Made by a program: the position numbers and the translations under genes | DNA from: Desulfovibrio sp. | GTDB taxonomy: Bacteria; Desulfobacterota; Desulfovibrionia; Desulfovibrionales; Desulfovibrionaceae | Direction of reading: 5' to 3' | DNA: 64,000 nucleotides | Assembly: GCA_030145055.1 (NCBI GenBank) | Contig: JAQYWK010000002.1 | Span: 62,001 to 126,000, forward strand | Notes under the pieces: generated by a model | Told to the model about the DNA's origin: nothing | Database searches by the model: none | Seen by the model: only the letters and a program-made list of their open reading frames with translations | Part shown: piece after piece, positions 15,246 through 21,425 of the stretch | Numbering within the stretch: position 1 is the stretch's first letter | Layout: each line of letters begins with the position of its first letter

Positions 15246-16568
15246 TTAATCAGTAGGTAATTTGCTGGTGATATTGTTTTTTATCCAAGTTCCATCCCAC
15301 CATTCGAAGGGATTAACGGGGATTCCTGAACAAAGAACGCCATAGTGAAGGTGATCTCCTCCAGCCATACCTGTTGCCCCTGTTTTACCAATGACCTGAC
15401 CACGTTCAACCATCGCACCTACCTCAACATCAATCTGGCTAAGGTGTGAGTACAGTGACTGTAATCCTAAGCCGTGATCTATGATAACTGCGTTTCCATA
15501 TATTCCGAAATCCTGCTCAGCCAAAACAACACGGCCCTTATTGGCTGCGGGTATTGGAGCATGTCTTGTGCTGGCAAGGTCGATTCCTAGATGAGTTTGA
15601 TTGTCGATCTTCTTACCATTATGTTTGTATGTTCTCTGATCCCCAAATCCTGCTCTGGAAGCTGCATTTGGAAGTCTACGGAACTTGCCTTCGAAAAGGA
15701 ATGTAGGTGAAGTGTCTAACCCTATTTTGCGTAGCTCAGCTCTATTCGTTTTGCGCAGCTCTCTGTTTACTCTTAAGAATAATTCGACCGGATCAGTTGT
15801 GTCGGGGAATTCACCTTCAAACTGAGGCATTTTGCTATTAAGAAAACGATCTGAAATGTTGATATTGTCGTGACGATAATTCTTGCTATTTGCATGGAAC
15901 CAGAAAGTGGCTGTTTTGTTATTTTTAGCTTCATCCTGAGCAATGATGGTAGGTGAGAAGTCTTTTGACCCTACGTAAAAAGGCATGGCAAAAAGCGCCG
16001 CATATTCTCCGTTAGGCTGTTTGTAACCAGGGAAAAAATCCTCTCCAACCATAACACCAGTTTTTACAGGATCGGCATCTACAGTATATAGTGCAAGCCC
16101 GCATCCGCCTTGTGTTAAGTTATGGGTGCTTGATTGTACTGTTATTTTCGGTGCGACAGTATCTAGTGTGTAATTGCCTCTTGCTATGACGGCATTTCCG
16201 CTTCCGAATCCTGCATATGAACCATCAACAGCCCACGCTGCAATTTCGAAATTACCCTGTTTAATTTGCTTCTTTTTGATTAAAATTTCCTGACTATAAT
16301 CGGCGGTCCCTTTTGGAAGATTTTTTTCTGCAAGGACGATCTGTTTCTTACCCTGCGTGAGTACTACTTTGATAGCTTTGATTCCGGACGGAGTGTCATT
16401 AACGGTGATATTAATCGGTGTCGAGTAAGTTATAAAACCCTTATCTGGATTAATTGTGATGGTTGGTGCTGCCGTATCTTTATATAGAAGATAAGCTCCT
16501 GCGCCGATAAGGCCCAGAATTATGATTGTTAGAATGAATGGTATAATGCGACCTTTACTTTTAGCCAT
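15246..16568 (-). CDS. M23 family (LytM-type) peptidase, membrane anchored
   Basis: A 440-residue protein. The start at 16568 was chosen because AAAGGA precedes it and the first residues (MAKSKGRIIPFILTIIILG) form an N-terminal membrane anchor; the frame is open to 16670 without these signs. The middle is beta-rich and resembles Ig-like repeats (TITINPDKGFITYSTPINITV). The C-terminal M23 domain has the zinc ligands in THLGIDLA and DHLHYGV, plus YSHLSQ. Family members cut peptidoglycan cross-bridges; the protein would act in the periplasm. It is divergent from the hydrogenase operon. Confidence 0.9.
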   Translation of the reverse strand: MAKSKGRIIPFILTIIILGLIGAGAYLLYKDTAAPTITINPDKGFITYSTPINITVNDTPSGIKAIKVVLTQGKKQIVLAEKNLPKGTADYSQEILIKKKQIKQGNFEIAAWAVDGSYAGFGSGNAVIARGNYTLDTVAPKITVQSSTHNLTQGGCGLALYTVDADPVKTGVMVGEDFFPGYKQPNGEYAALFAMPFYVGSKDFSPTIIAQDEAKNNKTATFWFHANSKNYRHDNINISDRFLNSKMPQFEGEFPDTTDPVELFLRVNRELRKTNRAELRKIGLDTSPTFLFEGKFRRLPNAASRAGFGDQRTYKHNGKKIDNQTHLGIDLASTRHAPIPAANKGRVVLAEQDFGIYGNAVIIDHGLGLQSLYSHLSQIDVEVGAMVERGQVIGKTGATGMAGGDHLHYGVLCSGIPVNPFEWWDGTWIKNNITSKLPTD

Positions 16569-16657
16569 GAGGGTGTCCTTTGATTCTATGAATTTATTTT
16601 TGAAATTATTTAGACTTTCTTTAAAAAAAGACCCTAGCAGGAAAGAGGGTGATTGTT

Positions 16658-16672
16658 CAATGTACAACATTG
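16658..16672. promoter_or_regulatory. Perfect 15-base inverted repeat, operator candidate
   Basis: CAATGT-ACA-ACATTG is a perfect 6-3-6 palindrome. It lies in the divergent spacer between the M23 peptidase gene and hysB, 6 bases before a TTGAAC element. It matches no regulator consensus that I recognise. Confidence 0.4.
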
Positions 16673-16859: not shown

Positions 16860-17804
16860 ATGAGTTTGACCAGGCGAGATTTTGTTAAATTGTGCACAGG
16901 AACAGTGGCTGGCTTTGGGGTTTCCCAAATGTTCAACCCAAGTATTGTGCAAGCACTTGAGAAGTTTGTACCACATGTCTTCTGGATACAGGGACAGGGC
17001 TGTACCGGATGTTCGGTTTCACTTCTTAATTCAGTGCACCCCTCAATTGCAAAAGTTTTGCTTGATGTAATTACCCTTGATTTCCATCCGACCATTATGG
17101 GCTCGGAAGGTGAAATGGCTTGGGGCCACATGACAGACGTGGCTAAAGAGCAGAAAGGCAAATACATCATGATCTTTGAGGGATCGGTACCAGTGGCAGA
17201 AAACGGCCACTATTGTATCCTCGGCGAGAAGGACCATAAAGAGTACACCATGCTCGAGACTACTATCGAGATGGCCAAGAATGCTGCTCTTGTTGTTAAC
17301 GTCGGTACTTGTGCTGCTTACGGTGGTATACCTGCTGCTGCAGGCAACGTTACTGAAGCTACTTCAGTAACAAAAGTACTTGCTGACAATGGAATTAAGA
17401 CTCCAGTAGTCAATATCCCCGGTTGTCCTCCACATCCAGATTGGATGGTTGGAACTCTAGTTGTCGCTATTAATGCGATCGAAGAGAATGGACTTGAAGG
17501 TGGACTTGGCGAAGTTGTTAAACTTCTTGATGACGAAGGTCGTCCAACACCATTCTTTGGTGAAAACATTCATGATAATTGCCCTTACCTCGACAAGTTC
17601 GACGAAGATGCATACTCAAAAGTGTTTACTGACAAAGAAAACTGTCGCTACGAACTCGGCTGTAAAGGTCCGAGTGCTAATGCCGATTGCTTCAAACGCA
17701 AATGGAATGGCGGAGTTAACTGGTGTGTTGAGAATGCTGTATGTCTTGGTTGTGTTGAGCCGGGTTTCCCGGATGAAATGTCTCCCTTCTACGAAGCCGG
17801 TTAA
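16860..17804 (+). CDS. hysB: Periplasmic [NiFeSe] hydrogenase small subunit
   Basis: A 314-residue electron-transfer subunit. The Tat signal is TRRDFVK (Arg5-Arg6), so the folded heterodimer is exported to the periplasm. The proximal [4Fe-4S] cluster uses Cys48 and Cys51 (GCTGC) plus NVGTC and IPGCPP. The distal cluster uses His238, Cys241, Cys262 and Cys268. In ordinary [NiFe] enzymes the medial cluster is [3Fe-4S], with a Pro in the NWP motif. Here that position is Cys289 (NWC), with Cys277, Cys295 and Cys298 also present, giving a [4Fe-4S] cluster as known for [NiFeSe] enzymes. A very strong AAGGAGG precedes the ATG. It is the first gene of hysB-hysA-hysD. Confidence 0.96.
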   Translation: MSLTRRDFVKLCTGTVAGFGVSQMFNPSIVQALEKFVPHVFWIQGQGCTGCSVSLLNSVHPSIAKVLLDVITLDFHPTIMGSEGEMAWGHMTDVAKEQKGKYIMIFEGSVPVAENGHYCILGEKDHKEYTMLETTIEMAKNAALVVNVGTCAAYGGIPAAAGNVTEATSVTKVLADNGIKTPVVNIPGCPPHPDWMVGTLVVAINAIEENGLEGGLGEVVKLLDDEGRPTPFFGENIHDNCPYLDKFDEDAYSKVFTDKENCRYELGCKGPSANADCFKRKWNGGVNWCVENAVCLGCVEPGFPDEMSPFYEAG

Positions 17805-17828: not shown

Positions 17829-19364
17829 ATGTCGAAATCGAAAGCACCCGCGAAAGACGGGAAACTTAAGATTGCCATTGACCCGGTTAGCCGGATCGAA
17901 GGCCACCTCAAAGCTGAGGTTACTGTTAAAGACGGAAAAGTTGTTGATGCCTGGCTTACAGGCGGTATGTACCGTGGTTTTGAGAACATCTTAGTTGGTC
18001 GCGATCCTCGTGATGCAGCTCAGTTGACTCAGAGACTTTGTGGTGTATGTCCAACAGCTCATTCCACTGCATCTTGTTTGGCCCTTGATGATGCTTGTGA
18101 CGTAAAACTTACCAGCAATGGTAGAGTTACAAGAAACCTCATCTTTGGTGCTAACTACTTGCAGTCCCACATTCTGCATTTTTATCATCTAGCAGCTCTT
18201 GATTTCGTTAGAGGACCAGGTAAAGCACCTTTCGTTCCTCGTTTCGATCATCCTGATCTTCGTTTGGATGAAAAAACTAACGCAGTTGCAGTTGACCAGT
18301 ACATTAAGGCTCTTGAAGTACGTCGCGTCTGCCATGAAATGGTAGCACTCTTCGGCGGAAAAATGCCTCATATCTCTGGTCAGGTTGTAGGTGGAACCAC
18401 TGAAATTCCTACTAAGGAAAAGCTTGCAGAATATGCTAGCCGCTTCAAAGACGTACGGAAATTCATTGCAGAAACTTACCTGCCTACCGTTTACTTGATC
18501 GGATCTGTTTATAAAGATCTGTTCAGCATCGGTGGTGGTTACAAGAACTGTATGTCATACGGTGTATTCCCAATGGATGACAAGGGTGGCGATAATGTCC
18601 TCTTGAAATCTGGTGTTTACATTGACGGCAAAGATTCTAAGTTTGATCCTGCTCTTATCAAAGAGTACGTTAAATACTCATGGTTCAAAGACTCTTGCTC
18701 TGATCTCCATCCGAGCGAAGGCAAGACTGTTCCAGATATTCACAAAGAAGGCGCTTACAGCTTCGTTAAAGCTTCTCGTTACAATAAGAAGCCTGTTGAA
18801 GTTGGCCCTCTTGCACGTATGTGGATCCACAACCCAGAACTCAGTGATATCGGTAAAAAACAGCTTAAAGACCTTTTCGGTATCAAAGCTGTTAAATTCC
18901 GCGATCTCGGAGAAGACATGGCGTTTTCTCTCATGGGTCGTCACGTTGCACGTGCTGAGGAAGCTCTCATTGTTGCTGATGCAATCAATGATACTTGGCT
19001 CAAGGATGTTAAACCCGGCGAAGAAACTTTCGTTGAGTCTAAGATTCCTGCAACTGGTGAAGGCATCGGTTTCACCGAAGCTCCTCGCGGATCATTACTG
19101 CACTATGTGAACATTCAAGACTCCAAAGTAGCTAATTACCAGCTTATGCCTGCTACTCTCTGGAATACCAATCCTCGCGATGACATGGGTCAGCGTGGAC
19201 CGGTTGAGGAAGCCCTTATCGGCTGTCCTGTTCCAGACACTGGAAGTCCTGTAGATATATCAAGGATCATTAGATCCTTTGATCCATGACTAGGCTGTGC
19301 CGTGCACGTGTTGCACGCAGAGACTGGTAAGACAACAGTTCATCACATTCAGGAAGGTTGCTAA
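17829..19364 (+). CDS. hysA: Periplasmic [NiFeSe] hydrogenase large subunit, selenoprotein
   Basis: 511 residues if TGA at 19287-19289 is read as selenocysteine (U487). Without readthrough the frame stops at 486 residues, right after DP and before the catalytic motif. Downstream in the same frame come LGCAVHVLHAETG and a TAA stop, giving DP-U-LGCAVH, the [NiFeSe] version of DPCxxCxxH. The other nickel ligands are Cys71 and Cys74 (RLCGVCPTAH), and Cys490 pairs with U487. Cleavage by the maturation protease is expected after His493, removing 18 residues. The subunit oxidises or evolves H2, probably passing electrons to periplasmic cytochromes c. TAGGAG lies before the ATG, 24 bases after hysB. 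Confidence 0.95.
19287..19325 (+). promoter_or_regulatory. UGA selenocysteine codon with candidate SECIS hairpin
   Basis: The TGA is followed 12 bases later by GTGCA (19302-19306), a 5-base loop, and TGCAC (19312-19316). The stem can be extended by C-G, G-C and T-A pairs around a bulged C. Its placement inside the coding sequence, directly after UGA, is where bacterial SECIS elements recruit SelB. Structure judged by eye. Confidence 0.55.
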
Positions 19365-19473: not shown

Positions 19474-19549
19474 ATTTCAGGACGGTTTTATTTGAATTCC
19501 GCCGATACAATTGAGAATGGATTCATGTAATCTGTTCAAAGGATTAAAA

Positions 19550-20026
19550 ATGAAGAAATTGCTTGTTTTAGGTGTTGGTAATATTCTGCTTATGGATGAG
19601 GGCGTGGGAGTGCATGCTATTCACGCTTTGCAGAAAGAAGAATGGCCTGAAAATGTTCACATGGTTGACGGTGGAACATTCACACAGGATCTTTTCCATG
19701 TTCTAGAAGGGTATGATGGACTTCTCGTACTTGATATAGTTCATGCCGATAAAGATCCTGGAACAGTATATATTTTTGACGAGGATGATCTTGTGAAGAA
19801 TGATTCACAGCGCTTGTCTTTGCATGATATTGACCTACTTGATTCATTGGAGATGGCGGGAACAGTTGGCAAGAGACCTAGAATGCGCGTAATCGGTATG
19901 GAGCCTAAAAGCTATACTGAGTGGAGTCTAGAATTAACTCCTGAAGTTCAGAAAACTTTCCCACATTTTCTAAATGTTGCAAGGAAAGAAGTGAATAGAT
20001 TTCTTGAAGAGTTTAAAGAAGACTAG
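19550..20026 (+). CDS. hysD: Hydrogenase maturation protease (HyaD/HybD family)
   Basis: A 158-residue endopeptidase that trims the C-terminal tail of the hydrogenase large subunit after nickel insertion. The nickel-sensing residues known from HybD are matched by Glu17 (LLMDEGVGVHA), Asp62 (LLVLDIVHAD) and His92 (RLSLHDIDLL). The ATG at 19550 has AAAGGA 6 bases before it; an upstream in-frame ATG at 19511 lacks this and would add a non-conserved extension. The position after hysA makes the selenoprotein HysA its natural substrate. The symbol is assigned from context. Confidence 0.92.
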   Translation: MKKLLVLGVGNILLMDEGVGVHAIHALQKEEWPENVHMVDGGTFTQDLFHVLEGYDGLLVLDIVHADKDPGTVYIFDEDDLVKNDSQRLSLHDIDLLDSLEMAGTVGKRPRMRVIGMEPKSYTEWSLELTPEVQKTFPHFLNVARKEVNRFLEEFKED

Positions 20027-20082: not shown

Positions 20083-20520
20083 TTATTCTTCGTTTTGTTC
20101 TAAAGCTTCCATAAGGCTGATGGTCAGCTTCAAAAAGTCGGCTTCAGTTAAAATTCCGGTAAGTTCATTTTCCTCGTTCACTACGGGCAAACAACCGTAT
20201 TTGTGATTAAGAAGCAGATCGGCGGCTTCTTTGAGCAATGTGTCGGCTGTGACTGTCTTGATGCCAGTTCTCATTATTTCACCGACAGGAATTCCAGAAT
20301 CAATTTCACCTTGAGTTGCTGGGTCGATTTCAGCTAAATGCGAAATTGTAGCTCCCAGTATATCTCTGTGGGTGATGAGTCCTATAAACATCCTTTTTTC
20401 ATTTACTATCGGAATATGCCTAATTCTTTGAAGATCCATCAGGGAGCGGGCCATCTTCAGCGTATCACTCTCATTTAGGGTGAACAGATTGGTGGTCATT
20501 AAGTCTCTAACTTTAAGCAT
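20083..20520 (-). CDS. CBS-domain pair protein
   Basis: A 145-residue cytoplasmic protein made of two CBS domains (residues about 5-60 and 80-140): VRDLMTTNLFTL...RIRHIPIV...LIGLITHRDIL and IMRTGIKTV...YGCLPVVNEENELTGILTEADFL. CBS pairs bind adenosine nucleotides and usually regulate a partner; no effector domain is attached here. The start at 20520 follows a perfect AGGAGGGG; the frame continues to 20544 but the longer start has no such site. The target is unknown. Confidence 0.88.
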   Translation of the reverse strand: MLKVRDLMTTNLFTLNESDTLKMARSLMDLQRIRHIPIVNEKRMFIGLITHRDILGATISHLAEIDPATQGEIDSGIPVGEIMRTGIKTVTADTLLKEAADLLLNHKYGCLPVVNEENELTGILTEADFLKLTISLMEALEQNEE

Positions 20521-20780
20521 AGTCCCCTCCTTTTCCTTAGTCATAATCTCTCTTTATGAAGCTTATGTTTCAAGTGGCTGATACATTAAATTGAAGTTTA
20601 ATCGTTTAATAGCTGTATTCAGGTTGACGTGGCCCTAAAAATCTGATTTTCAACATCAAACGATAATATTTATGTCGTTGTCTTAATACTACCTCATAAT
20701 TGAGGACTAACAAAGAATTTTTTGCAAACTGTTACAAATATATAGTTTGTTATTGAGGCAGAGCCTCATCGGGAGATATT

Positions 20781-21425
20781 ATGCGGATTGATCCAAAGCT
20801 CCGCAGATCTAAAATGGTTGAGGAACAGATTGTTGCCCGTGGCGTGGCAGACAAAAATGTTCTTGACGCCATGCGGAAAGTTCCCAGACACTTATTTGTT
20901 CAGGGCGCACTTGCCGATCGCGCTTATACCGACAGCGCTTTACCCATAGGCGAAGGGCAGACCATCTCCCAGCCTTTTATTGTTGCTTATATGTCAGAGC
21001 TTCTACAGGTAAAGGCTGGTCATAAAATTTTAGAGATAGGTACAGGGTCCGGTTACCAGGCCGCCGTACTGGGTGAAATGGGGGCGGATGTCTTTTCTAT
21101 TGAGCGGATACGCAAACTTTTTATCTCAGCGCGAACTCTTCTTTTCAAACTCAGATATTTCAATATTAATCTCAAGCTAGATGATGGAACAATGGGGTGG
21201 CCGGACGAAGCTCCTTATGACCGCATAATTGTTACCGCTGGCGGGCCTGAAATTCCGCAATATCTTGTTGACCAGCTTGCCGATCCAGGAAGGATGGTTA
21301 TACCTGTTGGGGGACAAAAGCGTAAACAGCAGCTTATTCTCATTACAAAAGAAGACGGCAAAGTTACTGAAACAGATATGGGTGGATGTTCCTTTGTAGA
21401 TCTTGTCGGTAAACAGGGCTGGTAA
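20781..21425 (+). CDS. pcm: Protein-L-isoaspartate O-methyltransferase
   Basis: A 214-residue SAM-dependent methyltransferase. Motif I is [19 protein letters not shown], preceded by the family signature VPRHLF and the [15 protein letters not shown] segment. It repairs isoaspartyl residues in damaged proteins by methylating them in the cytoplasm. CGGGAG precedes the ATG. The downstream DUF368 gene starts 22 bases after the stop, so the two are probably co-transcribed. Confidence 0.95.

Follow-up and report, generated by a model that had tools for sequence, protein, structure and literature searches.

Three adjacent forward-strand genes make up a hydrogenase locus in the window, a 64,000-nucleotide stretch of a contig from Desulfovibrio sp. 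(JAQYWK010000002.1, positions 62,001 to 126,000). The first, hysB (16860..17804), encodes the small subunit of an [NiFeSe] hydrogenase; its product scores 562 bits against NCBIfam NF045520 (cut-off 470) and matches Pfam PF01058 and PF14720, and inspection of the DNA by eye revealed a twin-arginine motif (MSLTRRDFVKL) at its N-terminus. A [4Fe-4S] medial cluster is stated to be a feature of this type of small subunit in the available part of PMC10779653. The large-subunit gene hysA (17829..19364) is placed between hysB and a gene for an [NiFeSe] hydrogenase maturation protease (19550..20026), the latter matching NF045519 (246 bits, cut-off 190) and PF01750. The protease reading frame is open from a TTG at 19511, and the ATG at 19550 was preferred as its start. 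Further out, profile matches identified an M23 peptidase (15246-16670, reverse strand), a CBS-domain protein (20083-20544, reverse strand) and a protein-L-isoaspartate methyltransferase (20781-21425, forward strand); these matches gave no sign that any of the three neighbours belongs to the hydrogenase.

In the list of open reading frames, the stop-based frame of hysA spans 17829-19289, with 486 codons and TGA as the last codon. This TGA (19287-19289) occupies, in frame, the codon of the first metal-ligand Cys of the DPCxxC motif. Read as selenocysteine (Sec), it is followed by 24 further codons up to a TAA at 19362-19364, and the 511-residue product ends in RIIRSFDP-U487-LGCAVHVLHAETGKTTVHHIQEGC, where Sec487 is predicted to provide the first of the ligands in the C-terminal DP-U-LGC-AVH motif. 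The initial annotation, which had placed the TGA directly after SFDP, was right in both coordinates and motif. The N-terminal ligand pair, RxCGxC, is intact (QRLCGVCPTAH). When Cys was substituted for Sec in the profile search, the product scored 885 bits against NCBIfam NF045518 (cut-off 780), and PDB entry 5jsu was aligned to residues 10-506 (E 1.1e-233), with a tail free of gaps up to residue 506. At the position of Sec487, a Cys is written in the solved chain 5jsu and an X in 5jsh, and the best solved relatives of the product are entered as selenocysteine-containing HysA. The curated HysA model and the solved structures agree with the earlier proposal that a Sec reading restores the [NiFeSe] motif, and the alignment of the 511-residue product with HysA proteins, suggested earlier as a check, supports it. 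Judged from its sequence, the product is HysA, the large subunit of an [NiFeSe] hydrogenase, which we take to have a mass of about 54 kDa.

The last residue of each of the solved chains 2wpn, 3ze6 and 6ruc aligns to His493 of the window HysA, and residues 494-511 (19308..19361, forward strand) are expected to be a C-terminal propeptide that is cut off after His493. Termination at the TGA would remove 25 precursor residues (487-511), and the initial annotation correctly counted these and the active-site ligands as lost; its statement needs amending for the mature enzyme, which would lose only 7 residues because the solved chains stop at the His493 equivalent, the remaining 18 being propeptide. 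Both Sec487 and Cys490 are among those 7; the practical consequence lies in annotation, since a stop-based call drops these two ligands of the metal site as well as the position cut by the protease.

HysA relatives were sought in 58 genomes, the window's own included, and one locus from the genome collection (L055) was added. A HysA-type gene covering the site was found in 29 of the 58 genomes, or 30 genes with L055; fragments short of the site, L053 (G009), L056 and one of G019, were left out. The site codon is TGA in all 30 genes in which it could be read, a count that does not represent 30 independent events because the relatives share ancestry. Within the window's genus, the TGA gene occurs in 15 of 17 genomes, with a fragment in G009 and none in G008; the latter has tRNA-Sec and gave no HysA-type match, so HysA is not universal in the genus. 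A tRNA-Sec was detected in 55 of the 58 genomes, including all 29 with the TGA gene, a co-occurrence that is weak evidence because most genomes lacking HysA also have this tRNA. Among 27 distant relatives, the motif was found in 25, every one with TGC or TGT; the motif search gave nothing for L068 and L081. The predicted propeptide past His493 is 18 residues long in all 15 genes of the window's genus, and in the 15 genes of other genera and L055 it measures 15 residues in 12, 17 in two and 4 in one. A second in-frame TGA was observed in L054 (G027) four residues (VLHA) beyond CAVH, and most of the usual propeptide is thus missing from this gene.

A hairpin is predicted directly after the UGA (19289..19328, forward strand; minimum free energy fold), with an apical stem formed by 19302-19306 and 19312-19316 and a loop, CGUGU, at 19307-19311. 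Its 5-nt loop, upper stem of 5 bp, G at loop position 2 and spacing of 17 nt satisfy all four constraints of the bacterial SECIS model as set out in the available part of PMC13188914. The 44 bases starting at the TGA have a minimum free energy of -18.7 kcal/mol (z -2.34), and 5 of 200 shuffled sequences were equally stable; taken alone, this shuffle test is modest evidence. When 3,000 synonymous variants were drawn from the codon usage of nine window ORFs, 3 were as stable as the native sequence and 131 were able to form the apical stem. For comparison, the sequence at the Cys site of the [NiFe] hydrogenase gene in this genome gave -8.5 kcal/mol and a different hairpin. Because Rfam, applied at gathering scores, matched nothing in the window, the SECIS call rests on the folds, the relatives and the published model.

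The apical stem is present in the minimum free energy fold of 29 of the 30 HysA sequences, the exception being L054, whose sequence differs downstream. Four of the five stem pairs are invariant, and the fifth is G-C in 29 sequences and C-G in L041, where a double change (bases 18 and 28 from its HysA TGA) preserves the pair at the cost of replacing a tail His with Asp; this paired change counts as one event. Over the 173 columns with an invariant residue, the mean codon entropy is 1.21 bits; for the six of these columns that fall between +3 and +10 past the TGA, the mean is 0.42 bits. When the gene is scanned in windows of six such columns, the five lowest values belong to windows starting at +1 to +5. 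Degeneracy-matched resampling, repeated 20,000 times, never gave so low a value, a result that is not an exact probability because the relatives share ancestry. This analysis covered 29 of the 30 sequences, the short tail of L054 having led to its exclusion; a simple rule was used to choose the gene starts, and it cut five genes down to 468 codons, with loss of N-terminal columns. Together, these observations support the assignment of the predicted hairpin as a bacterial SECIS element conserved at silent positions, and the comparative HysA data offer a clean view of selection acting on such an element within protein-coding sequence.

The selenocysteine machinery was likewise found in the window's genome. 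SelA (545 bits), SelB (375 bits) and SelD (330 bits) all scored above their cut-offs, and selC was detected as a tRNA-Sec of 80 bits (cut-off 47) with anticodon TCA according to ARAGORN; it sits on the same contig outside the window, within which ARAGORN found no tRNA. The expectation that selA, selB, selC and selD would be present elsewhere in the genome was therefore borne out in full by a search made with their possible absence in view, and by its gene content the genome should be able to decode UGA as Sec. The SelD gene itself (L015) has an in-frame TGA (AAG-U-AAK). Directly upstream of it, in the same frame, another ORF ends in TGA; its product is presumably CobT-like. Three formate dehydrogenase genes, counted from loci L105-L107, also contain an in-frame TGA, two in the context ARI-U-HSAT and one in ARL-U-HAPT. 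The two ARI-U-HSAT enzymes have Ala in place of the Pro of the formate dehydrogenase motif UHxP, and we take their U to lie at the aligned position of the family. ARL-U-HAPT fits UHxP, and the SelD sequence fits UxxK, both as tabulated in the available part of PMC13188914. Counting hysA, SelD and the three formate dehydrogenases, the genome therefore has no fewer than five genes with TGA at a Sec site.

Taken together, the hysB-hysA-protease locus almost certainly encodes a periplasmic [NiFeSe] hydrogenase in which the UGA at 19287-19289 is read as Sec487. As the ribosome translates hysA, Sec-tRNA-Sec would be brought by SelB sitting on the hairpin directly after the UGA; by analogy with known HysA, the UGA would be decoded as Sec487 and translation would continue to the TAA. 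Sec487 would then serve as a terminal selenium ligand of nickel. As in the known enzymes, insertion of the Ni-Fe site would probably be followed by trimming of the tail after His493 by the protease, the twin-arginine signal of the small subunit would take the pair over the membrane, and catalysis would presumably proceed as it does in characterised HysA proteins.

UGA decoding generally competes with termination, and the locus might therefore yield two products, the full-length Sec protein under ample selenium and a truncated, inactive chain under selenium limitation. The genome's own Cys-type [NiFe] hydrogenase (L004) could take over in the latter case, but no function for a short HysA form was seen, and this scenario, which is possible although on the doubtful side, adds to the main explanation and replaces nothing in it. 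That the TGA is a true stop, such that the protein finishes at residue 486, is very improbable: TGA is indeed a stop in translation table 11 and the stop-based call ends there, but a real stop would strip the enzyme of two of its four metal ligands, the codons past the TGA match HysA and are conserved together with the hairpin across relatives, and the genome encodes both the maturation protease and the apparatus for Sec incorporation. Still harder to credit is that the TGA arose through faulty sequencing or, in a gene undergoing decay, through a recent mutation of TGC, which would take one substitution from the TGC or TGT of the 25 distant relatives but would have to account for an identical TGA in 29 other HysA genes and an otherwise intact hysA frame.

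Several known systems resemble the window hysA and its product. The HysAB enzyme of 5jsu, 2wpn and 3ze6, which we take to be that of Desulfovibrio vulgaris Hildenborough, has the large-subunit family and the DP-x-LGCAVH motif in common with the window HysA, and its small-subunit and protease families are likewise found beside the window hysA; the window HysA has an 18-residue tail, and no functional difference was seen. Entries 1cc1 and 4kl8, presumably from D. baculatum, also match the window HysA (E < 1e-219). The genome also encodes a standard [NiFe] hydrogenase (L004, L005), which belongs to the same superfamily and aligns to HysA residues 14-127 and 145-501 with 53% and 37% identity, respectively; L004 has TGC at the site, within DPCIACGVH, whereas the window HysA has TGA. 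In its available part, PMC4730141 names D. salexigens and Desulfomicrobium baculatum as sources of characterised [NiFeSe] hydrogenases and already reports truncated annotation of such genes. The hysA finding is thus correct and already known in kind, for an enzyme that is itself known, with a solved structure, and that is valued as a catalyst for hydrogen production and oxygen tolerance. A Sec-containing FrhA is listed for D. vulgaris in the accessible portion of PMC1794560, and we infer that this entry is HysA. The search of relatives also returned three hydrogenase-like genes with one in-frame TGA each (G039:C2:116936-118303, G034:C8:533052-534419 and G031:C28:33658-35025); they share 27-29% identity with HysA and are perhaps of the known Sec-containing FrhA/MvhA type.

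A different Sec position was suggested by [NiFe] hydrogenase large-subunit genes from five genomes of one related genus (f5 g22) in the same order, which carry a TGA within ACGV-U-NYxH. In these genes (L091-L095), the TGA lies at 6809 of L099, 5961 of L100, 6078 of L102 and 1510 of L094, all on the reverse complement, and at 6615 of L101 on the forward strand. In ACGV-[TGA]-NYxHA, it takes the place of the second Cys of the N-terminal motif, which we take to be Cys68 in D. gigas numbering, a bridging ligand between nickel and iron. In the four genes that were read that far, the C-terminal motif, DPCIACGVH, retains its Cys. The first four of these genes surfaced in the 58-genome HysA search. 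Among 296 genomes of the order, a pattern derived from them hit five, every one from that genus, which contributed 8 genomes to the sample; the single new case was G064. The reversed control pattern gave 0 matches among the 296 genomes, and when a looser pattern was run on 395 genomes from across the phylum, its one match was G042, already one of the five. In G042, as judged by eye, genes for a small subunit and a protease lie on either side.

In all five genomes, 483 codons are open past the TGA. Across the ten pairwise comparisons, each of 485 codons including the TGA and the final stop, there were 59-156 synonymous and 6-71 non-synonymous codon differences, the synonymous count being greater in every pair. 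A pseudogene was rejected on the strength of the open codons together with this synonymous excess, and an assembly error on that of the occurrence of the TGA in five genomes. From +4 to +18 past the TGA, 15 codons are identical in all five genes; among 553 windows of this size, no other is free of variation. SelB was present in all five genomes and tRNA-Sec in the four covered by the tRNA-Sec search, and a formate dehydrogenase with an in-frame TGA (UHSAT; L113-L115) was found in the three genomes tested.

On these comparisons, it is reasonably likely that Sec entered hydrogenases at a second active-site position in the same order, giving a natural [NiFe] hydrogenase with a bridging selenolate. 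No report of a natural bridging Sec was found in the limited literature covered, which included the available parts of PMC11212049, PMC9961374, PMC13111528 and PMC13188914. For Escherichia coli Hyd-2, the accessible text of PMC11212049 describes engineered Sec variants at all four ligand positions, all of which were active, at levels below the native enzyme. If the assignment is true, bridging-Sec chemistry could be studied in a naturally evolved enzyme, and the five genes would matter more than the window hysA.

The hairpin predicted after the N-terminal TGA has the loop CACCC, without a G in its first two positions; the bacterial SECIS model asks for a G there, and some bacterial selenoprotein genes fail this model, according to the available part of the review PMC13188914. 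Cys-type paralogues were also compared. The hairpin stem is not retained in L096 and L097, which have TGC. It is shared by L098 (G050; TGT at 2534, reverse complement), and the stem is thus not specific to the N-terminal-TGA genes. The loop of L098, CGUCC, contains the G asked for by the SECIS rule, and this paralogue may be what remains of an earlier Sec gene.
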